Shown here: piece after piece, positions 1 to 44,186 of the stretch | Layout of the letters: every line of letters starts with the position of its first letter | How positions within the stretch are numbered: the stretch's first letter is position 1 | IMG/VR virus record: IMGVR_UViG_3300042523_000665 | Coordinates: 1-47,682 of that record | From: a virus | Strand: one strand, 5' to 3' | Length of the DNA stretch: 47,682 nucleotides | The notes under the pieces: model-generated | Told to the model about the DNA's origin: nothing | What the model saw: only the letters and a program-made list of their open reading frames with translations | Databases searched by the model: none | Position numbers and translations under genes: made by a program

Positions 1-1506
1 CCTGATAAAATCTACGTTGAAAAGATTTTAGTTGAAAAAGATAAATCGTATCACATTTGGGGTAAAATTTTTAGTGGAGAGACTATCCATGATTTTTGGA
101 TACCGAGAGCTGCGGTTATTAAACAATACACCGAAAACTTGGTTGATGTTAATTATACTAAGTATGAAAACCGACCACCACTCTCTCACCAAAAAGAAGC
201 AATAGAAAAATTATTAAAGAACGATAAGTTTATTTTGGCTGATGACATGGGTCTAGGTAAGACCACTTCTGCGGTGATTGCTTCATTAGAAAGTGGAGCA
301 AATAGAGTTTTAATTATATGTCCGGCGTCTCTTAAAATAAATTGGGAAAGAGAAATTAAAAACTATACCGACAAATCAGTTTATATCTGTGAGGGTAAGA
401 AGTTTGAATTAGCGGATTACGTGATTGTCAACTACGATATCCTTAAAAACTTCCATGACCCAAAAGATAAAAATGGTTCAACAATTCTTAATTCAAAATT
501 TGATTTGGTTATTATTGATGAAGCCCATTATGTTTCAAATGCTCAGGCTCAAAGAACAAAGATTATAATGGATGTAACCAAAAACATTAAAAAACTTTGG
601 TTATTAACGGGGACACCAATGACTTCTCGTCCCATGAATTATTATAATATCTTAAAACTTATTGATAGTCCTGTGAGTCAAAACTGGCAAGCATATGCAA
701 TTAGATATTGTGGTGGGTATCAGTTTAGAGTTGGTGGTAAAAAGATTTGGAATGTGACAGGAGCATCTAATTTAGAAGAATTAAGAGAAAGAACTTCACG
801 TCAAATATTAAGAAGATTAAAGACTGAAGTTTTAGATTTACCTGAAAAAATTATCACACCTGTTTATCTTCGTTTAAAATCAAGATTGTATGAAGGGTTG
901 ATGGGTGAGTATTATGATTGGTATAATAATAGACAAGATGAGTCAAGGTCTCTCTCAGTTCAGTTTTCAAAACTTATGAAAGTAAGACAGGTAATTGCTG
1001 AAGAAAAAATATCTATTACAATTGAACTTGCCGAGAACATTATTGAACAGGGTAAAAAAGTTATTATCTTCAGTAACTTCACCGAACCTTTAAAAAAGAT
1101 ACACGAACATTTTGGTAAGAAATCTGTTTATTTAGATGGGTCAACATCAAAACCTGCAAGACAAGATGCTGTTGACAAATTCCAAGAGAGTGATAAAATA
1201 CAAGTTTTTTGTGGTAACATGAAAGCTGCGGGAGTTGGATTAACACTTACCGCTGGTGAGGCCGTTATTATGAACGACTTATCATTTGTACCTGCTGAAC
1301 ATGCCCAAGCTGAAGACCGAGCATATAGATATGGACAAAAAAATTCAGTTTCAATATACTACCCATTATTTGATAACTCTATTGAAGGAGTTATTTATGA
1401 CATTCTTACAAGAAAGAAACAAATAATTGGTACGGTTATGGGTGATATAGACGAAAGTTCTGTAGATATTGTTGAACAAATACTTAACGAAATCAATAGT
1501 AAGTAA
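1..1506 (+). CDS. SNF2-type DEAH helicase, 5' end outside window
   Basis: This is a superfamily 2 helicase/translocase of the SNF2 type, probably acting on phage DNA in replication, recombination or repair. Helicase motifs appear in order: motif I DDMGLGKT, motif II DEAH, motif III LTGTP, a motif V-like AAGVGLTLT, and motif VI QAEDRAYRYGQ. The reading frame stays open from base 1, and the upstream residues (for example the stretch KSYHIWGKIF) look like real protein. The TTG at 139 is therefore not the start, and the N-terminus lies outside the window. About 501 residues are visible. T4 UvsW fills a similar slot, but the motifs here are closer to SNF2 proteins than to UvsW. The next gene starts 13 bases after the stop. 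Confidence 0.85.
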   Translation, partial: PDKIYVEKILVEKDKSYHIWGKIFSGETIHDFWIPRAAVIKQYTENLVDVNYTKYENRPPLSHQKEAIEKLLKNDKFILADDMGLGKTTSAVIASLESGANRVLIICPASLKINWEREIKNYTDKSVYICEGKKFELADYVIVNYDILKNFHDPKDKNGSTILNSKFDLVIIDEAHYVSNAQAQRTKIIMDVTKNIKKLWLLTGTPMTSRPMNYYNILKLIDSPVSQNWQAYAIRYCGGYQFRVGGKKIWNVTGASNLEELRERTSRQILRRLKTEVLDLPEKIITPVYLRLKSRLYEGLMGEYYDWYNNRQDESRSLSVQFSKLMKVRQVIAEEKISITIELAENIIEQGKKVIIFSNFTEPLKKIHEHFGKKSVYLDGSTSKPARQDAVDKFQESDKIQVFCGNMKAAGVGLTLTAGEAVIMNDLSFVPAEHAQAEDRAYRYGQKNSVSIYYPLFDNSIEGVIYDILTRKKQIIGTVMGDIDESSVDIVEQILNEINSK

Positions 1507-1519: not shown

Positions 1520-3025
1520 ATGAAATCGTTAAATATAGTATCAGAGTCATTAGTTAGTCGTTTGTTAGGTGAGGAAACTCAACCTGAAACCAAATTTTTT
1601 ATTAATGAAATGAAAACCATTGGTATTGATAAACTACCATATGGATACGCCTCGTTAAGAAGATTTATTGACCCTGAAACAATGAAGTTTCATTATCAAA
1701 AACATTATAAAGGGTATGTTAAAAAATTAAATTCAGCTCTTCGTAAAAAAGATTATGGTGATGTTGAATTGGAAAATATTGTTAAACAAATATCAAAATA
1801 TAATACAACAATAAGAAATAACGCAGGTGGAGCATTTAACCACGCATTGTTTTGGAAGATGTTATCCCCCACACCACAAAAACCAAGTGGAAAAGTATTT
1901 GAAAAAATTGTTAAACAATTTGGGACGTATCGTAACTTCAAAACTAAATTTGAAGAAATTTCAAGAAAACGATTTGGTTCAGGATGGTGTTGGTTAGTAT
2001 TAACCGATACGGGTAGATTAAAAGTAATGTCCACCTCAAATCAAGACAACCCACTTATGAATATAATTAATCAAGGTGGTTTTCCGTTGTTAGGTTTGGA
2101 TTTATGGGAACACGCATATTATTTAAAATACCAAAACAAAAGAGACGAATATATTGAGAATTTCTGGGAAGTAATCAATTGGGAATTTGTTAACGAATTA
2201 TACAAATCAAAAACTGAAAAAAAATTGAACGAGTCAATTTCACAAAAAAAACTTTTATACGAAAACGTATCTGATTATTCAGATATTTTTAGTAACAACA
2301 AAAATGTTCTTTGGGCTTATAGAAGATGTATTGACAATACATTGAAAAGAGTTTTATCTGATAAGTGGAGTGAAAACAATCAATACTCTGAAGGTTCATC
2401 TTCAGGTATCTACGACTTGGAACAACCAGGTCGTTCAGTAATTAATAAATTAAATACAAATTATATTGGGTTTAAGATTTTAGTTGATGATTTAAACGCA
2501 GTCCTTACGAAACTAAATAAACCCACATTAAATTTTATTGGGGTAACACCTTTACAACAAGTAGAAGAAATAAATAAATTTTGTTCTTATATGGAGTTTT
2601 TTGGTGAAAGAATTTTTAAAGGGTCTAAAACTCTTGATAAGATTATGAAACTTTTAAAAAGAACACATGACAAAGGTGGTCAACTTGAGGAGTATGTCGC
2701 AAAAAAAATCAATCAAGAATTTGGTGAAGGAACTGCAGTTGTAGTTGGTAGTTTAGGTTCAAAAGAAGATTTTGCAGGAACTGATTTAACAGTGAATTTT
2801 GATAACAAAATACAAAACGCTCAAGTTAAACCAATTTTAAGTATGGAAGTAATTGACGGTTTCTATAATATTAAAATTAAAGGTTTTGTCAAAAAGTTTA
2901 ATACCGACTTATTAATTTTCTCAAATATTAATAAAGAAGTTTATATTTTTAAAAACAAAACTGTCGCTTTTAGTTCAAGTATGTTTAAAATCCCAACACA
3001 AGATTTAATTTATACTGTGAATTGA
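1520..3025 (+). CDS. Mn/Fe superoxide dismutase fused to PD-(D/E)XK-like domain
   Basis: A 501-residue two-part protein. Residues about 35-230 are a complete Fe/Mn superoxide dismutase. The four metal ligands are visible as H58 (in HYQKHY), H108 (NHALFW), D194 and H198 (DLWEHAYY). NNAGG before H108 and NQDNPL near 174-179 are Mn-type signatures. Residues about 255-501 are not part of any SOD. Near the C-terminus E390/E391, D422 and Q435-V-K437 are spaced like a PD-(D/E)XK nuclease core with Gln in place of the usual acid; this is inference. The N-terminus (residues 1-18, ending LLGE) and the linker (LNE|S at 238, LYE|N at 248) carry (L/I)-x-E motifs like those cut by T4 prohead protease gp21. 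The neck gene follows directly, suggesting late expression. SOD call is strong; nuclease call is tentative. Confidence 0.85.
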   Translation: MKSLNIVSESLVSRLLGEETQPETKFFINEMKTIGIDKLPYGYASLRRFIDPETMKFHYQKHYKGYVKKLNSALRKKDYGDVELENIVKQISKYNTTIRNNAGGAFNHALFWKMLSPTPQKPSGKVFEKIVKQFGTYRNFKTKFEEISRKRFGSGWCWLVLTDTGRLKVMSTSNQDNPLMNIINQGGFPLLGLDLWEHAYYLKYQNKRDEYIENFWEVINWEFVNELYKSKTEKKLNESISQKKLLYENVSDYSDIFSNNKNVLWAYRRCIDNTLKRVLSDKWSENNQYSEGSSSGIYDLEQPGRSVINKLNTNYIGFKILVDDLNAVLTKLNKPTLNFIGVTPLQQVEEINKFCSYMEFFGERIFKGSKTLDKIMKLLKRTHDKGGQLEEYVAKKINQEFGEGTAVVVGSLGSKEDFAGTDLTVNFDNKIQNAQVKPILSMEVIDGFYNIKIKGFVKKFNTDLLIFSNINKEVYIFKNKTVAFSSSMFKIPTQDLIYTVN

Positions 3026-3048: not shown

Positions 3049-4179
3049 ATGAATACAATAATCGCAGAACCATACAGAAGTCAACTATATACAAAAGTTA
3101 GACACGTACTCGGAGCACCAATTCGTTCAATTGAATTAGAAGATGAACAAATGGATTCAATCTTGGAATTTTCTATCGGGGATTACTCCCAATATGTTCA
3201 AGATTGGTTAATTGAATCACAATGGACTTCATTATATAATTTAAATTTAGATACACAATCATTATCAAGAGCATTTGTAACTAAGAGTTTAGATTACGAA
3301 AACAGATATGCTCAGGCATACTCTAAAATAGTTGGTTTACAATCATCACCTCTTGGTGATTGGGAACTTAAAAAAGATTATATCACATTAGTTCCAAACC
3401 AACAGATTTATGAAATACCCGCAGGTCGTGAAATCAATGAATTATTATGGTTTACACCGGCAACGTTAAATAATGTATTATTTGACCCATGGAGTTTTGG
3501 GGCTTTAGGTGGTACAGGCATTGGTGGACCTGGTGGTTTTGCTCAAATGGGTGGTTCGGGTTCATACTTTATGACATCCGCATTTGATATGTTATTAAGA
3601 ATGCAAGAAATTAATATCCAAAGAAGAATTATTGGTGGTGATTTAACTTATAGAATAACAGGATTACCTAATGGTAAAAAGGCAATTCATTTAATGCAGA
3701 CACCTGGTGGTAAATTTGACTTTGGTAGTTCATCATTAAACCATCACCAAGTATGGTATTGGTATTACGATGTTGGACCTCAGGATAGAGATGCTTGTTT
3801 AGCTGCAAATCCTGATATTATTAAACTTCCTTCAGATGTTCCGATGAATTCAATTGGTTGGGTTGACTTAAATGACCCCGCACAACAGTGGGTTAGAAGA
3901 TATTTTGTAGCAAGTTGTAAAGAAACATTATCAAAAGTTAGAGGAAAATATTCAGGAAACTTAAAGACACCTGACTCTGAATTAACAATGGATTACGCAA
4001 CTTTAGCAACTGAGGGTAAAGATGAAAAAACAAAATTGATTGAGGAGTTAATTGGCGCAGATGGTAGATTGACAAGATTAAGACCTGAAAAAATAATGGA
4101 ACGTGAGGCATTAATTGCTGAAAATCTTAACAAACAAATGAAGTTCAGAGCGTTCCCAAGAAATATGTATGTAATATAA
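3049..4179 (+). CDS. 13: Neck protein, T4 gp13-like
   Basis: A 376-residue structural protein likely at the head-tail junction. The N-terminal stretch around residues 15-50 (LGAPIRSIELEDEQ, then a helix ending in a YSQYVQDW-type segment) matches the pattern that opens T4 gp13 (LGAPI-x-x-x-E-x-x-x-x-Q). A Gly-rich loop at about residues 150-175 (GGTGIGGPGGFAQMGG) and a later WYWYYD segment are also present. T4 gp13 is about 309 residues, so this is longer. It sits between the SOD fusion and a small protein, far from the tail genes, unlike T4 where 13, 14 and 15 are adjacent. Family assignment rests mainly on the N-terminal pattern. Confidence 0.65.
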   Translation: MNTIIAEPYRSQLYTKVRHVLGAPIRSIELEDEQMDSILEFSIGDYSQYVQDWLIESQWTSLYNLNLDTQSLSRAFVTKSLDYENRYAQAYSKIVGLQSSPLGDWELKKDYITLVPNQQIYEIPAGREINELLWFTPATLNNVLFDPWSFGALGGTGIGGPGGFAQMGGSGSYFMTSAFDMLLRMQEINIQRRIIGGDLTYRITGLPNGKKAIHLMQTPGGKFDFGSSSLNHHQVWYWYYDVGPQDRDACLAANPDIIKLPSDVPMNSIGWVDLNDPAQQWVRRYFVASCKETLSKVRGKYSGNLKTPDSELTMDYATLATEGKDEKTKLIEELIGADGRLTRLRPEKIMEREALIAENLNKQMKFRAFPRNMYVI

Positions 4180-7433: not shown

Positions 7434-10358
7434 TTAAGGTTGTTTTTGAATTTGTATTTTGTTTTCAGCAGTGAATGTTCTAGCGGAGAATGTATAAACA
7501 CTTTCACCAGCATAATCTATAGTTTGACTCACGCCATTACAATCTACATAATTTAAAGTTAAGTCAGGTGGTAATGTTTGACAATAAGTTGTTAATTGAA
7601 AATTATAACAACTTGTTGATGTATAAGTCCCTAAGTCAATTAAATCAAATCCATCAGGTGACGCTGGACCTGATATCCACCTTGGTGGGTAACTTGCATA
7701 AGATATAACTGTCATATAACCAATATCACTAAGCGAACCTAAAGTTTGACTAACGTAATTACCATTTATATTTCTATATTGAACTACCATACTTGATACT
7801 GAACAGTCACCATTTTTTTCATTACCAATAACATACATATTTAAAGGTTCTGCCGGTGATGGTGATGGAGTTAAACTGGTTGTAGGAGTTACCGTTGGTG
7901 TTTTAGTCACTGTTGGTGTATTAGTTGGGGTTGATGTTATTGTTGGAGTTTGTGTAACGGTTGGTGTATTTGTTGCGGTTTGACTTGGTGTTACAGTATT
8001 AGTTGGAGTTTGAGTTACAGTTGCTGTATTAGTCGGGGTTTGGGTTACGGTAGGAGTATTTGTTGGTGTAGGTGTTGGTGTTTCAGTATTAGTTGGTGTG
8101 GGTGTTGTTGTTGGTGTTGGTGACGCATAAATTGTTGGAGTAACCGATGGTGTTGGTGTGATAGTTGGAGTAACCGATGGTGTTGGTGTGATGGTAGGTG
8201 TCGGTGTTGGTGTTGGTCGACTTGGGTCAAAACAAGTTAAAATTAAAGTTTGGTCATCCTCAATTAAGTGTAAATAAAAGTTATTATAACAACAATTAGG
8301 TATTGTAGTATTGTTAACTGTAAATGGAAATGTCTGACCTGATGTAATCAAATATCTTGGATTTGATTCTGAAACTTCATAATATAAGTTAAATGTTCTA
8401 TCAGCAAAAGTAGTTGAGGTAACTGTAAGATTATTACCTGAAACTAATAAACAAATATCGTTAATCAATCCGTCAGAACAATCTGGACATCCGTAGTCAA
8501 AAAGTAAAAACGGACTTTTTAAAATATCAAAATTATGTATAACTTCAGGATAACTTAATGGTTCAGTATACATTCTAAACTGAGAAATCGCCCCATCAAA
8601 CGTTCCACCAAAAGTTGGTTCTAATAGTATATTGGTTGTTAAACCTGATAATGAAGTTCCTGACAATGTTTGATTTGGCATAACCTCAGGGTCTTGCATG
8701 TATGTCAACCCTGTTAAGGTTGTTGGACATCCTGTAAAAGTTAAACTTTCTCTTAAACCTTGTGTACCTCCACCCCAAGATATATTAAACGGAACACCTA
8801 ATTGTTTTTCTTTTTCTGTGTTTAACGCTCTTGGAATAACTTCTTCAAATCCATTAATTACATAAAATAATCTTCCATTAATATAAATTTTTAAAACACC
8901 CAATCTGTCTTCTCTCTCAATTAACCATCTTTCATTTAGGTTAACTATTTCAACCTCTTCTGCGGGTGGTGCTCCCTCTTGAGTAATTGGTGGTTGAATA
9001 AGTAGTATACTATTATTTGATAAACTATCAACATATTCTGTTTCACTAATTAATCCTAATCCCCCTCGATAATATAAATCACAAGTATCAAAGTAAGTAC
9101 TTCTTTCCCACACACAATCCACTAAAATCCAATGTTCTTTTGTTGTATAATCAGAATTTAAATCTTCACAATAATCAAAAATTTGATTTGATGAACAATA
9201 TTCTGTAATAGTATAACCTGTTTGATAGGTAATTCCTGTTGTTGGACAAGTTCCTGTTGTAACACAACCTCCTGTAAATGTTAATACTTTAACACATACT
9301 TTTGGATTTTTAGGGTCACCAGATAATCTCAATGAAAACGAGTTTGACATTGAGTCGTATAACGGGTCTTTGTCACTATTTGGGACTTGTGTGGTTGCGT
9401 TACACCCACAGTTACAATCGGTATTATGTTGTGCTTTATAAACTAAAGGTTCGTATACTTCAATACATCTTGAATTGGTAACACCCGTGTTTGAACACGC
9501 ACAAGTTTCTAAACATCCTGATAAAACACTTGTAACTCTTGTATACCCACTATCAGAAACTGGTGAACCTGACGCATGATGATAAAATTTATTCTCAGCT
9601 CTTGCCCCAAAATAGAAAAAAGTATTTTCATTTTCAGGATATGTTAAATTTAAAGTTGTTTGAGTGTTGGTTGGATAAAATTCATCAACATACCTTGGTC
9701 TAATCAACATCTCAACAGTCCACCCTTCGTTTGTTCTATTTGGGAATGTTTCGTAATCATACCCAAACAAACTAAAGAACCCTTGGTAAAAACCACCATA
9801 TAATTGATTGTAATATGTTATAGTATAACCTGATTCTGAAACCATATTATACAAAGTTTGTTTTGTATTCCCTGAAAATCTTTCGTTTGGAAGATTTGTA
9901 TAACCCGTTATTTGAAATAGTTTTGTTCTTCTATCAAAATGATATCTATCCCACTTACTCGACCCGGTAAATAGACCCATCGTATAATTGATTGTTTCAC
10001 CAGTCATCTGCGGAACTAAACCGTTATCTATACCTGTTAACCCAATATCACATAATGTAGAAGCCGTTAAACAATTTAAATCTTCATTTAGTGGATTATA
10101 GTAATTTAATGAAACTAAAGTATTACCTGATAAAAAATCACCATAATTAATTGTTAGTTCTTGTGATGATAAAGGATTGTTTAAATCAAAATAAATAGGT
10201 AATCTATTACCATCATTATAACCAATAAGATTAGTTGAAAATACAACTTCTTCGTTATAATCTTTTTCATCTGACGCTAAACAAATGTCAAAAATTTTTG
10301 GGACAGGTTTAACATACCACTTTTTAAAATTGAACTGATTTATATTCTGTTGAGCCAT
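7434..10358 (-). CDS. Large LamG-like fibre/adhesin with Thr/Pro-rich mucin-like tract
   Basis: A 974-residue protein, probably exposed on the virion as a receptor-binding or decorating protein. The middle part contains a segment typical of Laminin-G/concanavalin A-like lectin folds ([15 protein letters not shown], near residue 590). There are many Cys residues, some in clusters such as CNCGC and CPDC, and repeated short Gly/Thr-containing beta elements. Residues about 714-836 are a nearly pure Thr/Pro repeat ([16 protein letters not shown]) followed by a C-terminal beta-rich domain of about 130 residues. There is no signal peptide. A TATTTAT motif precedes the start by 7 bases. Its exact place in the particle is not known. 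Confidence 0.75.
7849..8217 (-). repeat. Degenerate Thr/Pro-coding repeat tract
   Basis: About 370 bases of short degenerate repeats encode PT, TPT, TNTP and VTQTP units inside the fibre-like gene. The tract forms a mucin-like, probably extended linker, and is prone to length change by slippage or recombination. Confidence 0.9.
8131..8190 (-). repeat. 30-base tandem duplication within the Thr/Pro tract
   Basis: Two consecutive 30-base units (8131-8160 and 8161-8190) are almost identical; they differ at base 3 of the unit. Each encodes a 10-residue Thr/Pro unit containing TPTPSV, so the copy looks recent. Confidence 0.85.
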
Positions 10359-11686: not shown

Positions 11687-11980
11687 ATGGCATCAAAAGA
11701 CCCAATAAATTTAGAACAACCATCAAATAATTTATCAACAATTGCTGATAAAATTAGAAAAGATTTAATAGTTAGAAATGACTATAAACCTGAAAAAAAT
11801 GAATATGGAGTTACAAATCCTGACGCAATTGCTGATGGGGATGATAAAGGAAAAGGAACAGGTATTTTCTTAGATGTTGCAAATGGAGGTTCAAGACAAG
11901 ACCAAATCGAAAGAAAAGACGATATTAAAATTAATAAATTTAACTCAAGTAAACCATATCAGTTTCCATCTGCAGAATGA
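11687..11980 (+). CDS. Unknown small polar protein, third gene of operon
   Basis: A 97-residue polar protein rich in Asp, Asn, Lys and Gly, likely partly disordered (DAIADGDDKGKGTG). It has a short helical N-terminal section and ends with a Pro/Tyr-containing tail (KPYQFPSAE). It overlaps the following WYL-like gene by 4 bases. No family is recognised. Low complexity and the position between the neighbours suggest a small accessory virion or assembly factor, without direct proof. Confidence 0.6.
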   Translation: MASKDPINLEQPSNNLSTIADKIRKDLIVRNDYKPEKNEYGVTNPDAIADGDDKGKGTGIFLDVANGGSRQDQIERKDDIKINKFNSSKPYQFPSAE

Positions 11981-12369
11981 AGCTTTACAACGTAATAAAA
12001 CAACTTATTTTTGAAGCTAGTATCGATGAAATAACCAATGCTATTAAAAATAGAAATTTGGTTACAATTTACTACAATGGTAAAGATAATGGAGGTAAAG
12101 GACTTCGTGTAATTGAACCTTTTTGTTACGGAACCTCAAAAAGAGGGAATAAAGTAATAAGAGCATGGGAAAGAGAAGGAGCGTCTCACACCGCACAAAT
12201 TGGTGACCAACCATTACCGGGGTGGAGATTATTTAGGATTGATAGAATAGGTAACTTTTCAGTAGACCCTAGAGATAAATTTGACGTAATCAGACCAAAT
12301 TATAATCCTGATGATAAAGGAATGGTAGGATTAAAAGTTTGTACAAAATTTGAATTAGAAAATGAATGA
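11977..12369 (+). CDS. WYL-like domain protein with capsid-targeting-type leader
   Basis: A 130-residue protein. Residues about 17-105 follow the WYL pattern: an RNLVTIYY strand, a basic RVIEPFCYG stretch, an RAWER strand and the closing WRLFRIDRIGNFSV element. WYL domains are SH3-like ligand or nucleic-acid sensors in transcription factors and defence proteins. Here there is no HTH partner. Residues 1-13 form a short amphipathic leader ending LIFE|A, which fits the T4 gp21 cleavage rule (L/I)-x-E|A/G/S. The gene overlaps both neighbours (ATGA with the previous, 8 bases with the next). The WYL assignment is good; the packaging idea is inference. Confidence 0.7.
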   Translation: MKLYNVIKQLIFEASIDEITNAIKNRNLVTIYYNGKDNGGKGLRVIEPFCYGTSKRGNKVIRAWEREGASHTAQIGDQPLPGWRLFRIDRIGNFSVDPRDKFDVIRPNYNPDDKGMVGLKVCTKFELENE

Positions 12370-13031: not shown

Positions 13032-14246
13032 ATGAAAGAAAAGATAAAAGTTTTAGTAGTCCCGTCTGATACTACTGGTGTCGGTAGATTTAGGTCAATA
13101 ACTCCACATACACATTTACAAACTCTATATGGAGACGATTTTCACATTGATATTGAATTCAATCCTGATTTAACTAATTTAAATTATTTTAAAAACTACC
13201 AAATTATACATTACCATCGTTCTCTTGGTCAAGATATGGATAAGTCAGTACAAATAGTTCCAATTCTTAACGCTTTAGGTATTATTACAGTATGTGATTT
13301 AGATGACTATTGGTTACCTGGTAAAGAACACCCACTTCATCAACTAATCGTTCAAGAAAAAATACACGAAAAAATTGTTGCGAATTTAAAAGTAGCAAAA
13401 TATGTAACTACAACAACTGAGTTATTTGCTGATGAAATAAAAAAACATAATAAAAATGTTGTAATTTTTCCTAACGCAATTGACCATAAAGAGGCTCAAT
13501 TTAATGAACCGACTGAAGAATCTGACTTGGTAAGAGTTGGGTGGTTAGGAGGTTCTTCACACCTACATGATTTGATGTTGCTTGATGGTATGGTATCTAA
13601 ACTTTCTGATATTCAGAAAAATTTACAGTTTGTTGTTTGTGGTTTTGATACTCGCGGTATGATGACAGAAATTAACCAACAGACAGGTGAACAAACAAGA
13701 AGACCAATTAAACCACACGAAACCGTATGGTATGATTACGAAAAAATATTTACAAATAATTATTCAATCGTTACACCTGAATATAAAAACCATTTAGAAT
13801 TATTTGTTCAAACACCATATGAAAATGAGGAAAACCAACCTTATAGAAGAGTTTGGACAAAACCCGTAACATCTTACGCCCGTAGTTACTCTAAATTTGA
13901 TATATCTTTGGCACCAATTAAACAACATATGTTTAACAAAGTAAAATCACAACTTAAAGTTATTGAAGCAGGTTTTTATAAGAAAGCGTTAATTGCAACT
14001 AATTACGGACCTTATACAATTGACTTAAAACACGCAATGAAGAATGGTGAGTTTACTGATGGGAACGCATTACTAGTCGATGACGCAAGAAATCACAGTG
14101 ATTGGGCAAAATATGTTAAGAAATTAGTCCAAAATCCAAATATGAGAATTGATATGGGTGAAAGACTATATGAACATGTTTCTAAACACTATAGTTTAGA
14201 TGTCGTAACAAAAACAAGAGCAGAATTTTATAAATCAATCGTATGA
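13032..14246 (+). CDS. Glycosyltransferase, GT-B fold (GT4-like)
   Basis: A 404-residue glycosyltransferase that opens the long sugar operon. The C-terminal half has the features of GT-B enzymes: RVGWLGGSSHLHD near residue 180 and the donor-site region KVIEAGFYKKALIATNYGPY near 312, where the Glu corresponds to the E of the EX7E-type motif. The N-terminal half carries an HYHRS and a CDLDDYW segment typical of the acceptor domain. It acts on cytoplasmic nucleotide-sugar donors; sugar and acceptor cannot be told. It overlaps the exonuclease gene by 4 bases, so translation is coupled. Confidence 0.8.
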   Translation: MKEKIKVLVVPSDTTGVGRFRSITPHTHLQTLYGDDFHIDIEFNPDLTNLNYFKNYQIIHYHRSLGQDMDKSVQIVPILNALGIITVCDLDDYWLPGKEHPLHQLIVQEKIHEKIVANLKVAKYVTTTTELFADEIKKHNKNVVIFPNAIDHKEAQFNEPTEESDLVRVGWLGGSSHLHDLMLLDGMVSKLSDIQKNLQFVVCGFDTRGMMTEINQQTGEQTRRPIKPHETVWYDYEKIFTNNYSIVTPEYKNHLELFVQTPYENEENQPYRRVWTKPVTSYARSYSKFDISLAPIKQHMFNKVKSQLKVIEAGFYKKALIATNYGPYTIDLKHAMKNGEFTDGNALLVDDARNHSDWAKYVKKLVQNPNMRIDMGERLYEHVSKHYSLDVVTKTRAEFYKSIV

Positions 14247-14941
14247 TAAAGCATCCATTACACAAAATCTTATTTATTGACATTGAAACTGTAGGAGTTT
14301 CAAGTAATTATGAAAATTTCAAAAAGGATTATCCTGAACTTCATTTTCAATTTATTAATTATTTAGATTGGTTTAAAAAAAGGTTTCCTGAAGATAGTGA
14401 ATTAAGTTTGGACGAAATTTTTGTTAACCGTGCGGCATTAGTTCCTGAATTTTCTAAAATTGTTTGTGTTTCAGTAGGATTTGTTGACCCAAAGGGTGAT
14501 ATTAAAAAACAAAGTTTCTTTAACTCAGACGAAAAAGTATTACTTAAAGACGCTAACACACTATTAAATCGTGTTGACAAATTAGGTTTTATTCTTTGCG
14601 GACATAACCTTAAGAATTTTGATATTCCTGTATTGGCAAAAAGAATGTTAATAAATGGTATTTTACCATCATCTATCTTACCGTCTTACGATACTAAACC
14701 GTGGGAAATTAAAGCGATTGACACAAAAGAAATTTGGCAATACGGACAATTTGGGGCAATAAGTTCATTAGAATTAATGTGTGTTTCACTTGGTATTGAA
14801 AGTCCTAAAAACATGGAAGTAACAGGTAATAAAGTCCATAACGCATTTTGGAATGAAAACAAATACCAAGAGATACAAGATTATTGTGAAAAAGATGTTG
14901 AGGTATTAATAAAAGTTTTAATTAAATTAACAAATTTATGA
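14243..14941 (+). CDS. DnaQ-like 3'-5' exonuclease
   Basis: A 232-residue stand-alone exonuclease of the RNase H-like superfamily. Exo I is FIDIET (residues 10-15), Exo II is CGHNLKNFDIP (about 114-124), and Exo III is YCEKDVEVL (about 213-221). All four catalytic acids are present. It resembles the exonuclease domain of family B polymerases more than DnaQ proper. Roles in DNA repair, host DNA degradation or RNA trimming are possible. It sits between a glycosyltransferase and dUTPase with 4-base overlaps on both sides, an odd setting for a nucleic-acid enzyme. Confidence 0.85.
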   Translation: MIKHPLHKILFIDIETVGVSSNYENFKKDYPELHFQFINYLDWFKKRFPEDSELSLDEIFVNRAALVPEFSKIVCVSVGFVDPKGDIKKQSFFNSDEKVLLKDANTLLNRVDKLGFILCGHNLKNFDIPVLAKRMLINGILPSSILPSYDTKPWEIKAIDTKEIWQYGQFGAISSLELMCVSLGIESPKNMEVTGNKVHNAFWNENKYQEIQDYCEKDVEVLIKVLIKLTNL

Positions 14942-15507
14942 ATCAAGAACAATTTAATATAAAATTAGACGAACTTTCAAAAATGTTAAAAGAAATAGAT
15001 AATGAAGGTGAAAAAAATTTAAATTTAGATATAGGTGAGATTGAAGGTGATTTTGAAAAAATATTTGATGGTAAAATTACTATAAAATATAAATCAAATA
15101 ATAATAAAGAATTAAAATACAATTACCCATCTGATAGTGGATTTGATTTATATTCAAATGAAGAAATCATTATACCTCCGTTTGGTAGAGTGTTAATTCC
15201 AACAGGTATATATTTTGATTTACCACAAGATTTTGAAGTTCAAGTTAGGTCAAAAAGTGGGTTAGCCATCAATCAAGGTTTAATGGTTTTAAATTCACCT
15301 GGTACAGTAGATGAAGGATATACAGGAGAGATTAAAGTTATTATTTTTAATACAAATCAGTCAGAGTTTAAAATTGAAAAGGGAATGAAAGTAGCCCAAG
15401 CAGTTGTTGCAAGATGTGTCACAGGACGATGGGTTAATTTAGTTGAGGTTAATGAAATAAAAGATAAGGACCGTGGTGAAAACGGGTTTGGAAGTACAGG
15501 GATATGA
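14938..15507 (+). CDS. dut: dUTPase with N-terminal extension
   Basis: A trimeric dUTPase that hydrolyses dUTP to dUMP and PPi, keeping uracil out of phage DNA. The five motifs are seen: SDSGFDLYS, PTGIYFDLP, RSKSGLA, the substrate-binding GTVDEGYTGEI, and the C-terminal RGENGFGSTG. The enzyme proper covers about residues 40-189. The first ~40 residues are an extra charged, Glu/Asp/Lys-rich extension. It is coupled by 4-base overlaps to the exonuclease before and the glycosyltransferase after it. Confidence 0.95.
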   Translation: MNQEQFNIKLDELSKMLKEIDNEGEKNLNLDIGEIEGDFEKIFDGKITIKYKSNNNKELKYNYPSDSGFDLYSNEEIIIPPFGRVLIPTGIYFDLPQDFEVQVRSKSGLAINQGLMVLNSPGTVDEGYTGEIKVIIFNTNQSEFKIEKGMKVAQAVVARCVTGRWVNLVEVNEIKDKDRGENGFGSTGI

Positions 15508-17141
15508 TAACAATAGGATATAGTACACGAAATTCTAACACAGAATTTCAAGAATATTTAAAAAAATCTTCGGGACACCCCAAGGTTCAAATTATTGAAA
15601 AAGTTAATAATGGTGAAAAAAATCTTTCTGAGGTTTATAACGAAATTATATCAGAATCTAATTTTGATATAATTGTATTATGTCATGACGATATCTATTT
15701 TGACACAAATAATTGGGCTTCAAAATTAGTTAAACAATTTGATAAAAATCCTGATTATGGAATATTCGGTATGGCAGGTACAACAGAAATGCCAACAAGT
15801 GGAATGTGGTGGGAAGATAGGTCAAAGATGTATGGGATAGTAAATCATGAATCTGAGGGTAAAAAATGGGAATCAAAATATTCTGATTCATTAGGAAATG
15901 ATATTAAAGAAGTTGTTGTTGTTGACGGTGTGTTTATTGCGATTAACAAACAAAAGATTAAATCTAATTTTGATGAAACGGTTAGTGGGTTTCACATGTA
16001 TGATGTTAATTTTTGTTTTAAAAATTTCTTAGAGAATGTTAAAATTGGTGTTCTAACTAATATCAGATTAACACATAAATCTATTGGAATGACGAATGAA
16101 AAGTGGGAGGAAAATAGAAATTTATTTGTTGAAAAATATTCAGAATTTTTACCTAAAAAAATAAAGTTTACCGAAGATAGTAGGTTAAACGTGTTAATAT
16201 CATGTTTATTTTTTCAGAAATTTACAGGTTCTGAAATGTATGTTTTTGAACTTGCAAAAAATTTGGTAAAACAAAACTGTGACGTTACAATTGTTGCGTC
16301 TGAGACCAACGGTCCGTTAGTGTTAATGGCTACTAAATTAGGAATTAAGGTTAAAAATATAAAAGAAACACCGGGATATAAATTAGGTGATGGTAAATGG
16401 ATTGTAATGACACCAGAAGGTCCTAAACCATCAATACCAAACAATTATTATAAAATTTCAGAGACACATTTCGATATCATTCATTGTCAACATAAACCTA
16501 TTGTTGATATAATGAATATGTTATATCCAAATGTTAATAAAATATCCACAATACATTCTGAGGTTATTGAATTAGAAAATCCAGTTGTTCATCAATCAAT
16601 TAAAAAATACATAGCAATAAGACCTGAGATTAAAGACCACATTGTTTCTAATTTTAATATACCTGATAACATGGTTGATGTTATCTATAATCCGATAGAT
16701 GAAACTAAATTTTTTAATAAAAATTTAAATTCTGAAAATTACGTTTTATTTGTTGGTTCAATCGATTACTTACGAGAAAAAACTATACGAGATTTAGTTG
16801 AATACACTAAAGAAAACAATAAAGAATTATGGTTAGTTGGTGAAAACAAATCAAATTTTCTTTCAGAAATAACTAAAAATTCTCATGTTAAATTTCACGG
16901 ACCCACATTAGATGTGGACAAATATATTCATAAATGTTTTGAAACTGCCGGAATACTTTTAGGTAGGACAACTATTGAGGGGTGGATGTGTGGTAAACCA
17001 GGATGGATATATAATGTAGATAATACAGGAAACATTATTAATAAAGAATTATTTAATATTCCTGACGATATTAATAAATTTAAATCGTCAAATGTCTCCA
17101 AAACAATAAGACAAACATATCTTGATATTTTAAACAAATGA
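15504..17141 (+). CDS. Bifunctional glycosyltransferase, GT-A plus GT-B
   Basis: A 545-residue two-domain enzyme. Residues 1-225 form a GT-A domain with a DDIYFD acid motif (CHDDIYFD near residue 54-61) and a conserved GFHMYDVNFCFK segment near 160. Residues about 233-545 form a GT4-like GT-B domain that starts at RLNVLISCLFFQKF, contains STIHSE, VDVIYNPID and VLFVGSIDYLREK, and ends with the donor-site region GRTTIEGWMCGKPG. Such fusions can add two sugars in succession. It overlaps dut at the start and touches the 2-epimerase gene at the end. Confidence 0.85.
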   Translation: MITIGYSTRNSNTEFQEYLKKSSGHPKVQIIEKVNNGEKNLSEVYNEIISESNFDIIVLCHDDIYFDTNNWASKLVKQFDKNPDYGIFGMAGTTEMPTSGMWWEDRSKMYGIVNHESEGKKWESKYSDSLGNDIKEVVVVDGVFIAINKQKIKSNFDETVSGFHMYDVNFCFKNFLENVKIGVLTNIRLTHKSIGMTNEKWEENRNLFVEKYSEFLPKKIKFTEDSRLNVLISCLFFQKFTGSEMYVFELAKNLVKQNCDVTIVASETNGPLVLMATKLGIKVKNIKETPGYKLGDGKWIVMTPEGPKPSIPNNYYKISETHFDIIHCQHKPIVDIMNMLYPNVNKISTIHSEVIELENPVVHQSIKKYIAIRPEIKDHIVSNFNIPDNMVDVIYNPIDETKFFNKNLNSENYVLFVGSIDYLREKTIRDLVEYTKENNKELWLVGENKSNFLSEITKNSHVKFHGPTLDVDKYIHKCFETAGILLGRTTIEGWMCGKPGWIYNVDNTGNIINKELFNIPDDINKFKSSNVSKTIRQTYLDILNK

Positions 17142-18196
17142 AAAAAACAATTATAACTATTACTGGTATTAGACCTGACTTCATCAGAATGTCTGAAATT
17201 TTTAAAAAATTAGATAATAATTTTAATCATATATTAGTACATACTGGACAACATTATGATAAAATGTTGTCAGATGTATTTTTTGATGAGTTATCAATAC
17301 GTAAACCTGATTTTAATTTAGAGATTGGTTCAAATGGAAAAGAACATTTTCATCAACAGGCAGACTTATCTGTCAAAATAATTGACTTAATTCGTAACGA
17401 AAATATAAATCCTGATTTAATAATTTTTTTAGGTGATTCAAATTCAGCATTAGCATCCGTACCTCTTAAAAAAGAGGGGTATAAAATTGCTCACATTGAG
17501 GCGGGTATGAGGTCGGGCGATAAAAGAATGCTTGAAGAAATTAATAGAATTGTTTGTGACCATTGTAGTGACCTTTTATTTGTTTATCATGATAATTACA
17601 AAGAAAAATTGATTAGAGAATCAATTAATCCAAAATCAATTTATGTTGTAGGAAATACAATTAAAGAGGTTGCAAATAAAATAGAATTAAATAAATCTAA
17701 AAAAAATAATAAAATAATTTTAGATATTCATAGACCTGAAAATTTTAATAGTAAGGAACGTTTAAAAAACATATTAAACTACGCTAATATTTGTTCCCAA
17801 AGATTTGGGATACCTATTGAAATGTTATCATTTAAAAGAACTATTGATAAAATTTCCGAATTTAATTTAAATTTAGAAAATATTAAAGTAATTAATTTAT
17901 TATCTTTTAAAAATTATATAAATGAAATGTATCATTCTAAATTTATAATTTCAGATTCAGGCACAGCTCAAGAAGAACCTTGTTTATTTAACACTCCAGT
18001 TATTGTACCGAGAGATTTTACTGAAAGACCTGAATCGGTTGAATATGGATGTTCATATATGATTAATGTAAATGAATTAGATGTTTCGTGGATTGATTCA
18101 TTTAATTATCTATCAAATTATAACTCAAACACAGATTGGTTAGGAGATGGTAAAACATCAGACAAAATTATTGAAATATTAAAAGAAAAATTATGA
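17138..18196 (+). CDS. UDP-GlcNAc 2-epimerase (WecB-like)
   Basis: A 352-residue enzyme of the non-hydrolysing UDP-N-acetylglucosamine 2-epimerase family, which interconverts UDP-GlcNAc and UDP-ManNAc. Typical signatures are GIRPDFIRM near the start, HTGQHYD (residue 36), FLGDSNSALA (about 96), HIEAGMRS (about 114), and DSGTAQEEPCLFNTP near 277. Family members are usually 370-380 residues, so this one is slightly compact but complete in the catalytic regions. It supplies an amino sugar to the glycosyltransferases beside it. It overlaps both neighbours by 4 bases. Confidence 0.92.
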   Translation: MKKTIITITGIRPDFIRMSEIFKKLDNNFNHILVHTGQHYDKMLSDVFFDELSIRKPDFNLEIGSNGKEHFHQQADLSVKIIDLIRNENINPDLIIFLGDSNSALASVPLKKEGYKIAHIEAGMRSGDKRMLEEINRIVCDHCSDLLFVYHDNYKEKLIRESINPKSIYVVGNTIKEVANKIELNKSKKNNKIILDIHRPENFNSKERLKNILNYANICSQRFGIPIEMLSFKRTIDKISEFNLNLENIKVINLLSFKNYINEMYHSKFIISDSGTAQEEPCLFNTPVIVPRDFTERPESVEYGCSYMINVNELDVSWIDSFNYLSNYNSNTDWLGDGKTSDKIIEILKEKL

Positions 18197-18996
18197 TTTC
18201 TATCGTTACCGCATATCACAATCGAAAAAAAATATTTATTAAAACATTAGAAAGTTTTAAAAAAAGTAGTTTTACTGATTTTGAAGTTATTGCGGTTGAT
18301 GACTGTAGTCACGAAGATGAAAGATTAGAAGATTTGGTAAACGAATTTCCTTTTTTAAAAATTATTAGATTAGAAAAAAAAGATAAATGGTATGTAAATC
18401 CATGTGTTCCCTTTAACATCGGATTTAATCAAGCGTTAGGTGATAAAATTATTATACAAAATCCTGAATGTTTACATTCAGATGATATTTTAAATTTTGT
18501 AAACAAGAATTTGATTGATAATGATTATTTATCATTTGCTTGTTATTCTTTAAGTGAAATTCAAACATCAGCAGTGTTACAACTGAATGATTTTAAATCA
18601 TTTATTAACCCCTCAACGTATAGAAAAATATCAGTAGTTAATGATGGTGATGAAGGATGGTATAATCATTCATTATATCGACCAAAATCTTATCATTTTT
18701 GTACCGCAATAACTAAAAAAGATTTAAAAGAATTAGGAGGATTTGACGAAAGATTTGCATCTGGAGTGGCGTTTGATGATGATGAATTTATACATAGAAT
18801 TCGTATTAAATTAAATGTTAGGTTCATTGATGATTTTGTAGCACTTCATTTATGGCATTACGGAAATGATAAAAATGCGACAGTAACAAATCGAGTAAAT
18901 ATGGATAATAAATTTTGGGAAATGTGGAATAAAAATAATTACTTATTTAATTATGTTACTAAAATTGAAAATAAATACTCTATAAATAATGTCTAA
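18193..18996 (+). CDS. GT2-type glycosyltransferase
   Basis: A 267-residue GT-A enzyme of family 2 type. It begins with MISIVTAYHNRKK, then VIAVDDCSHED as the nucleotide-sugar binding acid motif. ELGGFDERFASGVAFDDDEF near residue 180 resembles the C-terminal region of galactosyltransferase-type GT2 proteins. It is probably cytoplasmic, with no membrane segment. It overlaps the previous gene by 4 bases and the following GT17-like gene by 8. Donor and acceptor are unknown. Confidence 0.85.
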   Translation: MISIVTAYHNRKKIFIKTLESFKKSSFTDFEVIAVDDCSHEDERLEDLVNEFPFLKIIRLEKKDKWYVNPCVPFNIGFNQALGDKIIIQNPECLHSDDILNFVNKNLIDNDYLSFACYSLSEIQTSAVLQLNDFKSFINPSTYRKISVVNDGDEGWYNHSLYRPKSYHFCTAITKKDLKELGGFDERFASGVAFDDDEFIHRIRIKLNVRFIDDFVALHLWHYGNDKNATVTNRVNMDNKFWEMWNKNNYLFNYVTKIENKYSINNV

Positions 18997-19777
18997 AAAA
19001 ATATTTGATTGTTTTAAATTTTTTAATGAAATAGAATTATTACACCTACGATTAATGGAGTTAAATCCTGTTGTAGATTATTTTGTAATAGTTGAATCTA
19101 ATAAAACACATACCGGAAATCCTAAAGAATTTATTTTTGAAAAAAATAAAGAACTTTTTAAAGAATATCTTGATAAAATAATACATGTTAAAGTTGAGGA
19201 TTTACCGGTATATTCTTCAGATAATATATGGGTGCCTGAAAATTACCAAAGAAATTGTATAATGAGAGGTTTAGTTGACCATGCGTCAATAGGTGATAAA
19301 ATAATTGTTTCAGATTTAGATGAAATTCCAAATACTGATTTAATTGTTAATAATATTGATAATAATGAGTGGGTAACTTTTAAACAAAATTTGTATTATT
19401 ATTATGTAAATTGTAAACAAAATTGTTTATGGGATGGACCAATAATGGCAAATTACGGAACTTTTCAGTCACCACAACAATTAAGAAATACCGCAAGACA
19501 TGGTTATAATAGTAAATTTCACGGAGGATGGCATTATAGTTTTATGGGAGGGCCTGAGAGAATTAGATATAAAGTTGAAAATATTGCAGAATCATCTTTG
19601 ATAATTGATAATGTTGGTAATCCTTCTGAAATAGAAAGTAAAATGAAAAATCAAACTGACTTATGGAATCGTACCGATGATTATGCTAAAAAAGAAATTG
19701 TTGATATAACAAAAGATAAACCAAAATCTATGGATAAATTTTTAGAATTATATCCTGATTTTTTATACAAAAAATAA
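18989..19777 (+). CDS. GT17-like glycosyltransferase
   Basis: A 262-residue protein resembling glycosyltransferase family 17 (beta-1,4-N-acetylglucosaminyltransferase type). The signatures are an N-terminal IFDCFKFFNEIELLHLR, VIVESNKTHTG near residue 32, NYQRN near 82, and the DxD motif SDLDEIP near 107. A HGGWHYSFMGG segment lies near 176. These match the arrangement in bacterial and viral GT17 proteins. GT17 with UDP-GlcNAc as donor would fit the neighbouring 2-epimerase, but the substrate is not proven. Confidence 0.8.
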   Translation: MSKKIFDCFKFFNEIELLHLRLMELNPVVDYFVIVESNKTHTGNPKEFIFEKNKELFKEYLDKIIHVKVEDLPVYSSDNIWVPENYQRNCIMRGLVDHASIGDKIIVSDLDEIPNTDLIVNNIDNNEWVTFKQNLYYYYVNCKQNCLWDGPIMANYGTFQSPQQLRNTARHGYNSKFHGGWHYSFMGGPERIRYKVENIAESSLIIDNVGNPSEIESKMKNQTDLWNRTDDYAKKEIVDITKDKPKSMDKFLELYPDFLYKK

Positions 19778-19781
19778 ATAC

Positions 19782-20510: not shown

Positions 20511-20533
20511 AATGTTAAAATTAAAAAAATAAT

Positions 20534-20944
20534 ATGGAAAAAATATATTCTAAAATTAATGGAGAACTCCTTCATCAAGTTGTGAGATTATCTGATGTTA
20601 TTTCCAAAAGAACCGATTTAAGTACTGATAAAAACTATCTTCAGTGTGCCAGTTTAAAATTATCTAAAGGACACACATTTAAACCTCACAAACATAACAT
20701 AATCCCAAGACATGACGAAAATTATATACCTCAAGAAAGTTGGTGTGTTATAAAAGGAAAGGTAAAATGTATTTTCTATGACATTGATGATAATGTGATT
20801 GCAGAACCTATATTATCCGCAGGTGATATTAGTTTTACATTTAATGGTGGTCATAATTATTTGATTTTAGAAGACGATACTATTGTATATGAATATAAAA
20901 CAGGGCCGTATTTTGGTCAAACAATTGATAAAACTTTTATTTGA
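20534..20944 (+). CDS. Small cupin protein
   Basis: A 136-residue single-domain cupin. Motif 1 is seen in the GHTFKPHKH region near residue 50, and motif 2 is the GGHNYLIL segment near 108, so a metal site with three or four His is likely. Cupins in sugar operons often serve as sugar isomerases or WbuC-like accessory proteins. Position beside an acyltransferase and a DegT-like protein suggests work on an amino or deoxy sugar. The reaction is not known. Confidence 0.7.
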   Translation: MEKIYSKINGELLHQVVRLSDVISKRTDLSTDKNYLQCASLKLSKGHTFKPHKHNIIPRHDENYIPQESWCVIKGKVKCIFYDIDDNVIAEPILSAGDISFTFNGGHNYLILEDDTIVYEYKTGPYFGQTIDKTFI

Positions 20945-22081: not shown

Positions 22082-22090
22082 AAATAAAAT

Positions 22091-23062: not shown

Positions 23063-23077
23063 AAAATAAAATATATT

Positions 23078-24001: not shown

Positions 24002-24012
24002 ATAAATTATAT

Positions 24013-26316: not shown

Positions 26317-26339
26317 AAAAATAAAAAAATAAAAAAATT

Positions 26340-27164: not shown

Positions 27165-27167
27165 ATA

Positions 27168-28741: not shown

Positions 28742-28744
28742 AAT

Positions 28745-29803: not shown

Positions 29804-29804
29804 T

Positions 29805-39856: not shown

Positions 39857-41746
39857 TTATCTTAATTCATTCAAATCGAATGTACGAACACCATCAACGA
39901 TGATACGACCATAGAAGCGATTGTTCACCATCTTCTTCGCATATCTTGTCATGATACCCTTGATAGGAGTAAAGTTGAATGGGTTATACATTGTTGGAGT
40001 TAATTGTAACGGTACGTATGGAGCGTAGATGTAACCAGTATCCAATAAAGAAGTACCTTTATGACCAATCAACACAGTGTTAGCTGGGAAGTATGGGTCA
40101 CGGTATACTTGATAACGACCACTTAATGTACCAACTCTCTCGATACCCATGTTGAATTGGTCCTGCTCAGGAGCCGCATTTGATACGTGGAAGTATTCCA
40201 AGTCATCAAAGATTGCACTGATTTCAGAAGATACAACAATCCAGTTAGCTCCACCTCTTAAAGTAGACTTGTGGATTTGAGCTGAAATTTGGTTGATTGC
40301 AGTAATCAACGTTTGGTTCCAGTCCTTTTGAGTGTAAGGAGTTGATTGGTTGTTCAGACGCTTCCATCCGTTGTAATCCCAACGTAATGTCCACGCTGCA
40401 CCTTTACGTAAGTCACGTAAGATTTCACGGTCAATTTCAGCCGCCACTTGTTCAGATAATAAAGCTGTTAATTCAGCTTCAGCATCGATGTTGTGGAACG
40501 CTGCAACGTCTTGTGCCATTTCTGGAGACCATTGTGCTCTTAATTTTCTTTCTGTAACAGATACAGTTACTGACTCAAGGTCAAAAGAAACTTCACCAAT
40601 TTTATCTTCAAATTCTAACTCTTCGTAACGTCTCCAAGCTGCTTGGATGTTAGTATTAGCAGAAGAACCACTCCATTGTGTAGCAGTTAATGTTGCTCCA
40701 GAATATCCATCAGGAGTTGACTGTCCACAAGCAATACATGCCGGAACTTGAGTGTCAATCTCTAAATAGATATAACCTTGTGTATTACACACGTTATCAT
40801 AGTAACCACCATTACCTTGAGTTGTACTTGCGAAAGTACTACCAAAAGCCGCTTGAGTACTAGTGTAGTTTGGCCCGTATATTGATTGACCATACTTTTG
40901 AGTTACAACACGGTATAAAAGTGGTGTATATGTATTAGTACCTAAGTTAGACGCAACAGTTGCGTTATTAGTATAAAGAACTAAGTTAGATAAGAAAGAT
41001 TCAGTATCTTGTTCTTGTCCGTCAGGTCCAATTAACTTACCATTACCTGCAGAAGTTAAACCTGAAAGTGCTACAATAATTTTTCTAAATTCAGTGTTAG
41101 AACCACCTTGTACAGTGTAACCTGAAGGAATTAATGCTCCGTCAGACCAAGCAACTGTTGGACATGAACCTGTTAGTGTTACAAAACGTCCTTTAGAATA
41201 ATCAAATAAACCTGCTGGGTTAAGACCTGGCTCAGTTCCTTCGTAGAATAAATCATAAAGGTTTTTCGCGTAAGTTGGGTTGTTTGCACTTCCTGTACCA
41301 GTAGCGTAACCTGCATTTGGGTCACCAGGATAGTTTCCAGGAGAGCCTACAGGCGCGTAATGGTCACCTGAAGTAACGTTTAATCCGTTGATTGCAGAAC
41401 CACCAGAATAACCTTGGATTTGTGGTACGAAGTAGAACAATTTACCGATTGGTAAGTTCATAGCTTGTACAGAAACGATTTCGTTAGACAATAATTTAGA
41501 GAACACACGTCTGATGATAGGGAATACCACAGTCTCGAATGAACCTGAATCTGCCGTAGAAGATGCTTCGTTAATCAAATGTGACGCTTGGTTTTCATAC
41601 AATTGTGCAACATTTTCTTTTAGGTGGCCTTTAAGACCTTCAAGGAACCCTAATTTGTCCCATTTGTTTACTGTGTCTTCTTTGATAACTTTCAAGTGCT
41701 TAAGACCGATGTTACCAACTAATCCACTTTCTAATAATGCTCCCAT
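39857..41746 (-). CDS. 23: Major capsid protein, T4 gp23-like
   Basis: A 629-residue HK97-fold capsid protein and the main building block of the head; T4 gp23 is 521. The N-terminal 60 residues form a propeptide ending HLINE|ASST, which matches the T4 maturation site at E65|A66. Additional (L/I)-x-E sites are seen in the propeptide (LKE|N at 44, LYE|N at 51). After cleavage SFETVVFPIIRRVFSKL starts the mature protein, as in T4. An inserted Gly/Thr/Asn-rich region (about residues 115-345) may be an exposed decoration domain. The C-terminus has typical gp23 features (GIMTRYAKKMVNNRFYGRI). The gene is last in the T4-order head block. Confidence 0.95.
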   Translation of the reverse strand: MGALLESGLVGNIGLKHLKVIKEDTVNKWDKLGFLEGLKGHLKENVAQLYENQASHLINEASSTADSGSFETVVFPIIRRVFSKLLSNEIVSVQAMNLPIGKLFYFVPQIQGYSGGSAINGLNVTSGDHYAPVGSPGNYPGDPNAGYATGTGSANNPTYAKNLYDLFYEGTEPGLNPAGLFDYSKGRFVTLTGSCPTVAWSDGALIPSGYTVQGGSNTEFRKIIVALSGLTSAGNGKLIGPDGQEQDTESFLSNLVLYTNNATVASNLGTNTYTPLLYRVVTQKYGQSIYGPNYTSTQAAFGSTFASTTQGNGGYYDNVCNTQGYIYLEIDTQVPACIACGQSTPDGYSGATLTATQWSGSSANTNIQAAWRRYEELEFEDKIGEVSFDLESVTVSVTERKLRAQWSPEMAQDVAAFHNIDAEAELTALLSEQVAAEIDREILRDLRKGAAWTLRWDYNGWKRLNNQSTPYTQKDWNQTLITAINQISAQIHKSTLRGGANWIVVSSEISAIFDDLEYFHVSNAAPEQDQFNMGIERVGTLSGRYQVYRDPYFPANTVLIGHKGTSLLDTGYIYAPYVPLQLTPTMYNPFNFTPIKGIMTRYAKKMVNNRFYGRIIVDGVRTFDLNELR

Positions 41747-43466: not shown

Positions 43467-44186
43467 TTATTTTCCTAAATAATCGGTAAGTCTTCCCATT
43501 AAATCAAGCGATTTGTTAACTGTTCTTGCTGCTTTCATATCATTTTCTTCTTTTAGGTTTTCCTCAAACGCAAATCTTCCATCAGGTTCAGTAAATAAAT
43601 AAGCTCCTGGTGTTGATGGTGATGACACCAAGTCAAAACAAATTAATTCAAAATCATCCTGAACTTCATTTTCTTCACCTACCTTTTTTAAAGAACCTAC
43701 CCCTCTTGATGATATACCTAATGTTACACCTAGTCTTAATAGGTTTGCTGCTTGGTCACCCTTTGTTGATACAATACCTCTTTCATGGAACCCTGGTGAT
43801 GTTAAAAGTAATAGTTTACCTAATAGAACATTACCATCCCACCACATTTCTGTAATCATGTGTGATACTCTATCTAAATCTATCAATGAAGATTCAGGGT
43901 GGTTAAGTTCAGATAAAGAGGTTTTTTTACCGATATAATTCTTTATATAATTTTCGGACTCTCTTTTTAAAATTCTTTCGGGATATATTCTACCGTTTCT
44001 ATTCGGTGTATTATATTTTTGTAAAACGGCATAAAATTCAAATGGTTTAGAATAATCTTTAAAATCCTTACTTTCTTGTAAGAATGTTTGATTATGTTTT
44101 TCTGTTGGAGAAACATAACCTGCGTCCATCTCAATTAAAATACCTTTTCCCGTCTCTTTTGGACCTAATATTTTGTAATTTTGCAT
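43467..44186 (-). CDS. 21: Prohead protease, T4 gp21-like
   Basis: A 239-residue serine protease that matures the prohead by cutting after (L/I)-x-E. The catalytic His is in SELNHPES (H96), and the Ser in LGISSRGVGS (S159 or S160), as in gp21 and the herpesvirus-type assemblin fold. NRNGRIYP near residue 63 and DLVSSPSTPGAY near 205 are also typical. T4 gp21 is about 212 residues. FLQE|S at residue 38 may be a self-cleavage site. It would act on the capsid, scaffold, core proteins and the candidate packaged proteins. Confidence 0.93.
   Translation of the reverse strand: MQNYKILGPKETGKGILIEMDAGYVSPTEKHNQTFLQESKDFKDYSKPFEFYAVLQKYNTPNRNGRIYPERILKRESENYIKNYIGKKTSLSELNHPESSLIDLDRVSHMITEMWWDGNVLLGKLLLLTSPGFHERGIVSTKGDQAANLLRLGVTLGISSRGVGSLKKVGEENEVQDDFELICFDLVSSPSTPGAYLFTEPDGRFAFEENLKEENDMKAARTVNKSLDLMGRLTDYLGK

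Follow-up and report, generated by a model that had tools for sequence, protein, structure and literature searches.

Superoxide dismutases (SODs) encoded by phages have so far been interpreted as auxiliary metabolic genes of the ordinary kind, active in the infected cell. Also known already are the internal proteins of phage T4, the polyvalent proteins (PMC5512222) and the packaged SODs of algal viruses (PMC7019647). The prohead protease of T4, gp21, cleaves behind L/I-X-E and in this way strips the internal proteins of their head-targeting leaders (PMC9026906, PMC5694885). The polyvalent proteins of phages and conjugative elements described by Iyer et al. (2017), in which several unrelated effector-like domains are carried by one polypeptide, are thought to enter the host together with the DNA (PMC5512222); superoxide is unmentioned in the main text of that paper. 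The chlorovirus PBCV-1 has a Cu/Zn SOD (a245r) that, like giant-virus SOD, is expressed late and packaged (PMC7019647).

We analysed a stretch of 47,682 nucleotides of viral DNA (IMG/VR virus record IMGVR_UViG_3300042523_000665, positions 1 to 47,682; hereafter the window), in which the ORF 1520-3025 (+) encodes a protein of 501 aa, as stated in the preliminary description. Precisely, this protein is composed of a leader, a Mn-type SOD, a variable linker and a C-terminal module formed by a helical part (MID) and a PD-(D/E)XK-like domain (NUC). As in polyvalent proteins, several unrelated effector-like domains stand in one polypeptide, but no built-in peptidase domain was recognised in the fusion. 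The likeness to PBCV-1 a245r and to the giant-virus SOD is that of a virus SOD, whereas those enzymes are of an unrelated family, belong to eukaryotic viruses and are not fused. New here are the conserved prohead-protease-type [LI]xE motifs at E30 and E248, which flank the SOD.

The fusion protein belongs to a widespread T4-like phage group and is not unique to the window. Hundreds of related contigs in IMG/VR match it, relatives are encoded by 596 of the 599 pattern-matching stretches, and the SOD-MID-NUC fusion is present in the best 80 loci, with 47-98% identity and mostly at full length. Since the same layout was found as one ORF in each of these best 80 viral loci, an assembly chimaera or a frameshift fusion was ruled out and we considered the fusion as no artefact. 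A SOD joined to a nuclease-like domain had been put forward as new. This holds for the literature searched, in which no paper was found that describes a SOD precursor of phages combining a nuclease module with prohead-protease sites (few subscription journals were covered, so that this is weak evidence of absence), but not for the databases: besides the hundreds of related contigs, a 501-aa protein that is 94% identical over the module was already deposited (A0A6J5L953 of UniProt, in BFVD), carrying only the name 'superoxide dismutase [uncultured Caudovirales phage]'.

Judged by its residues, the segment 31-228 (1610..2203, +) is a complete Fe/Mn-family SOD of Mn type. In the Pfam search, residues 36-226 matched Sod_Fe_C (PF02777, 4.1e-41) and Sod_Fe_N (PF00081, 3.3e-22) with near-full coverage of the profiles, and residues 38-229 matched MnSODs of the PDB with E-values down to 1e-59. 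The metal ligands H58, H108, D194 and H198 are all present and are invariant in 29 aligned homologues. The same homologues keep NNAGG (residues 100-104) and NQDNPL (residues 174-179) invariant, except for N100, which is conserved in at least 90% of them; the Mn-type outer-sphere Q175, also invariant, lies in NQDNPL, and the Gly-Gly pair is at 103-104. The signature DxWEHxxY is represented by DLWEHAYY, with DLWEH invariant. The early claim of a complete Mn-type SOD was therefore correct in its four ligands, its two motifs and their numbering, with both Pfam domains found. Bacterial MnSODs (PF00081 and PF02777) have the same ligands, the same Mn-type Gln in NQDNPL and the same DxWEHxxY, and differ from the phage protein in that the latter adds a leader before the SOD and MID-NUC after it. 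A scan of cellular genome contigs returned two SOD loci only (41-43% identical to the phage SOD) and no fusion. In the searched phage records, SODs match the fusion over the SOD part only; SODs without MID-NUC occur in Vibrio phage 2.275.O and in PA5oct-like phages. Over six pairs of relatives, omega was 0.01-0.09 for the SOD vs 0.15-0.45 for MID and 0.08-0.46 for NUC, with stronger purifying selection on the SOD than on MID or NUC in all six. The full-length AlphaFold model was poor in the N-terminal part of the SOD (pLDDT <50 at residues 73-103), which we attributed to a shallow alignment, and it was not used for the SOD fold.

The C-terminal module gave no significant sequence match in Pfam, PHROGs, PDB or INPHARED; scattered single-member Pfam matches (HORMA, MC4 and others) were put down to chance. 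An AlphaFold model of residues 246-501, built on an alignment of 24 sequences, had a pLDDT of 90.5. By using Foldseek, the best PDB match of the module was the PD-(D/E)XK homing endonuclease I-Ssp6803I, with modest figures (E 3.7e-3, prob 1.00, TM to target 0.42), and the next structural matches were archaeal Hjc resolvases. On the evidence of these best solved structural relatives, residues 251-501 would adopt a PD-(D/E)XK-like fold as a nuclease-like module. In the model, E390, D422, Q435 and K437 sit on the core helix and strands; the core helix and the first three strands fit PD-(D/E)XK, and a beta hairpin replaces a clear second helix. Among 29 full-length homologues E390 is invariant and D422, Q435 and K437 are each at least 90% conserved, and an alignment of 20 NUC domains, distant paralogues among them, shows no variation at these four positions. 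The E...D...QxK arrangement is shared with I-Ssp6803I and Hjc-type enzymes, as probably is much of the core fold, whereas no sequence relation to them is detectable, the NUC model is without the helix normally placed between strands 3 and 4, and MID is an extra helical domain of the phage module.

The preliminary description had assigned the whole of residues 255-501 to the nuclease-like domain. The four residues and the PD-(D/E)XK relatives proved to be real, but about 130 residues belong to the separate helical MID (residues 251-382, 2270..2665, +, delimited on the AlphaFold model), and the core is restricted to NUC (residues 383-501, 2666..3025, +, defined by Foldseek and by the conserved E390, D422, Q435 and K437). 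Fold prediction of the C-terminal part had been set beforehand as a test of the assignment, which withstood it, as the best solved relatives are PD-(D/E)XK enzymes. MID has a motif of its own, G-I/V-Y-D-L-E..GRSV-N-K-L-N-T-N-Y, in which G296, G304, R305, S306 and N309 are invariant in the 29 homologues. The BFVD search also showed the entire MID-NUC module, in a distantly related form, within a marine phage protein of 1113 aa (TM 0.83, 20% identity).

The leader (residues 1-30, 1520..1609, +) ends in F-I-N-E30↓M, where the arrow marks the putative cut at a T4 prohead-protease-type L/I-X-E site, and is a probable capsid-targeting propeptide. The linker (residues 229-250, 2204..2269, +) contains two further motifs of the [LI]xE pattern, L-N-E238↓S (nt 2231-2233, +) and L-Y-E248↓N (nt 2261-2263, +). 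So short a motif as L/I-X-E is frequently met, 56% of ORFs having one within N-terminal stretches of 45 residues, so that we gave weight only to its conservation at fixed places. For this purpose motifs were counted in 45 non-redundant fusions, the window included. [LI]xE is present at E30, immediately ahead of the SOD, in 45/45 of them, followed at P1' by M in 41 and by A in 4; at E248, between SOD and MID, it is present in 42/45 (the E itself in 44/45, and the three exceptions reading 'NVK', 'VRE' and 'VSE'), and at E238 in 35/45. The sequence around the linker motifs is otherwise variable, and elsewhere in the protein an equally conserved [LI]xE is found only at E197, in the catalytic WEH of the SOD. 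Residues 17-42 and 234-250 have a pLDDT <50 in the full-length model and are predicted to be disordered. At the very N-terminus (MKSLNIVSES in the window) the motif at position 9 is VSE, without L or I. The likeness to T4 leaders noted at first is hence stronger than had been stated, given that [LI]xE closes the leader at E30 in 45/45 relatives.

A candidate enzyme for such processing is encoded in the window. A gp21-type prohead protease is at 43467..44186 (-) (PF03420 Peptidase_S77, 2.5e-26; phrog_207 head maturation protease, 6.8e-44), the major capsid protein is the ORF 39857-41746 (-) (Gp23, PF07068, 1.6e-72), and Portal_T4 is also present. Residues 57-60 of the capsid protein carry the motif LINE↓A (41567..41578, -), which we took as a reference cleavage-type site and which recurs in 4/4 capsid protein N-termini read from related contigs. 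It has the same form as the leader motif FINE↓M, the P1' residue being Ala in the capsid and mostly Met after E30. With T4 IPI-III and Alt, whose capsid-targeting sequence is cut by gp21, the fusion has in common a leader ending in L/I-X-E, a gp21-type protease in the same phage and cargoes that are mutually unrelated. It differs from them in that the precursor holds two folded enzyme-like modules with a second site between them, in that the leader is of 30 residues vs 10-20 in the T4 internal proteins, and in that the cargo is a SOD, whose packaging is predicted.

On these grounds we favour, with somewhat better than even confidence, a head-targeted precursor that would be cut into leader, SOD and MID-NUC, both enzyme-like parts being packaged and injected with the DNA. 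In this scheme, the leader would load the precursor into the prohead; during head maturation the gp21-type serine protease would cut after E30, and a probable cut after E238 or E248 would free the SOD (about 31-238) from MID-NUC (249-501). Both products would stay alongside the packaged DNA and accompany it into the following host. There, the SOD would scavenge superoxide, whether encountered by the arriving genome or produced by the host under stress, and the nuclease-like MID-NUC would act on DNA, be it incoming, recombining or of the host. The preliminary description had proposed a protein possibly carried in the virion that might protect the infecting genome and attack host DNA or defence systems; of this, presence in the virion is what the sequence signatures point to. 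We infer packaging, cleavage, enzyme activities, injection and targets. Among them, the proposed head loading and leader removal draw on suitably placed conserved motifs and on the established biology of T4, and the proposed separation of the SOD from MID-NUC draws on the linker motif. The protein is probably made to be cleaved, rather than to work as a SOD-nuclease fusion. Weighing against the scheme are the three fusions that lack the E248 form, the VSE at position 9 of the window protein, Met as the usual P1' residue at E30 vs Ala in the capsid protein, a gene position which, gp13 aside, is outside the main head operon, and the modest fold match in the PDB. Should the SOD be packaged and injected, superoxide would be countered from the very start of infection, which has been proposed for the packaged SODs of giant algal viruses.

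Relatives without SOD bear on this scheme. In several loci (L148, L174, L183, L184, L186 and others) the slot between the helicase and the gp13-like gene holds a shorter protein made of a leader, an [LI]xE and MID-NUC, with no SOD and with the cut-site motif directly before MID; one of them (L184) keeps the first motif as SINE↓MKK. No SOD was found elsewhere in the contigs of the SOD-less relatives, some of which are fragments. Each of 20 large related contigs has one MID-NUC gene of this form, two of the 20 have a second, diverged NUC, and in two (G013 and G019) the SOD is absent. As SOD-less relatives in the same slot keep both parts, we considered leader plus MID-NUC as the conserved unit; from sequence comparison, the SOD is an optional insert between two protease-type sites.

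NUC paralogues occur also in other proteins bearing [LI]xE leaders. A protein of about 500 aa combines a leader of MKI-ITES type, a zinc ribbon, an L5 gp82-family domain (PF25735, 5e-31) and a C-terminal NUC (for example L286:1483-2970 (-) and L033:4121-5629 (-)); MID is weakly detectable in it (hhalign E 8e-5, in a single comparison). The gene of a 318-aa MID-NUC protein with the leader MKITISE (L287:1105-2058 (+), contig G012) has the prohead protease on one side and scaffold genes on the other. That NUC is a C-terminal module shared by two partners, the SOD and the zinc ribbon with its L5 gp82-type domain, would also be expected if it were a DNA-binding anchor of PD-(D/E)XK fold which holds packaged cargo on the DNA and is no nuclease, and a free nuclease would be dangerous inside a DNA-filled head. 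However, an anchor would not need the E, D, Q and K that are invariant even in distant paralogues, and a cut at E248 would release it from the SOD, so that we regard this reading as improbable.

The fusion gene is flanked upstream by a SNF2-type helicase (139..1506, +; PF00176, 5e-27) and downstream by a gp13-like neck/head-tail adaptor (3049..4179, +; phrog_211, 2.8e-8). The helicase ends <=350 nt upstream in 29 of the 44 testable related loci and the gp13-like gene lies <=250 nt downstream in 39 of 45. The neighbour at 3049-4179 had been called gp13 from the start; its match to the T4 gp13-type adaptor supports that call and a head-gene neighbourhood, and gp13 aside the fusion gene stands outside the main head operon. 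No T4 late promoter (TATAAATA) was found directly before the gene on the same strand; its start lies 13 nt behind the helicase, so that the two are probably co-transcribed. Within the structural region of the window, glycosyltransferase, sugar-nucleotide and related genes form a long series (13032-30611), which hints at glycosylation of particle or host surfaces. A window protein of 974 aa with a long linker of TPTPTP-type repeats (7434-10358, -) is probably a fibre or adhesin.

The upstream helicase would suit an intact two-domain enzyme that acts unpackaged in the infected cell, where the SOD would guard phage DNA under replication, together with the proteins that replicate it, against superoxide, and MID-NUC would hold the enzyme on DNA or, like Hjc, resolve branched DNA. 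SOD and module in one ORF in the best 80 related loci, the phage SODs without module, which can act inside cells, and the rank of Holliday-junction resolvases right after I-Ssp6803I among the relatives of NUC agree with such an enzyme. We nevertheless consider it rather unlikely, because it leaves unexplained the [LI]xE conserved in leader and disordered linker, the SOD-less versions with the cut site directly before MID, and the gp13 neighbour.

The conserved place beside the neck gene could instead indicate a structural or head-completion nuclease, with the SOD mainly as a dimerisation unit or passenger. The T4 proteins gp4 and gp2, which would be the model for it, act at the packaged DNA end or neck. 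Such a role for MID-NUC is in line with its presence in 20/20 large contigs, SOD missing from G013 and G019, and with the other MID-NUC gene between prohead protease and scaffold genes. Against it, no gp4/gp2 family was found in Pfam, PHROGs or the top BFVD matches, and the SOD is no mere dimeriser, because it keeps every catalytic residue and has the lowest omega, below MID and NUC in 6/6 pairs; we hold this explanation to be quite improbable. The cleavable, head-targeted precursor remains the reading that we prefer.

The leader of the fusion may be one case of a tag shared across the phage genome. In a near-identical contig of 240 kb (G005), related N-terminal tags were found on 21 of 275 ORFs, with 16 unrelated cores. 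The strict tag pattern matched these 21/275 ORF starts vs 1/1073 internal methionines; its regular expression was written after examples had been seen, which makes its p-value no more than an illustration. Tested more loosely, the same contig gave 45/275 vs 86/1073 (p = 9e-5). The window leader MKSLNIVSES fits the loose pattern and not the strict one. From such sequence patterns the shared tag is possibly a general capsid-loading tag of the phage group. It is conceivable, though a little short of an even chance in our judgement, that this T4-like group uses such a tag and the prohead protease to deliver enzymes, including a SOD freed in the head, and that its virions inject an antioxidant enzyme. 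A recurring tag with a protease site would then give a sequence rule by which virion-borne unknown proteins are predicted in common T4-like phages.

Many small unrelated proteins of the same contig (L290-L302) share tags with [LI]xE motifs, among them MKKVVRLTESDLTRIVKRVINE and MKYLITESQL; examples of tagged proteins, in record positions, are 14242-14736, 17034-17684, 24204-24497 and 3116-3451. In the window, leaders that end in FVLSE↓A (37006-37524, +), KYLNE↓A (38775-39518, -) and QLIFE↓A (11977-12369, +) mark further candidate packaged proteins.
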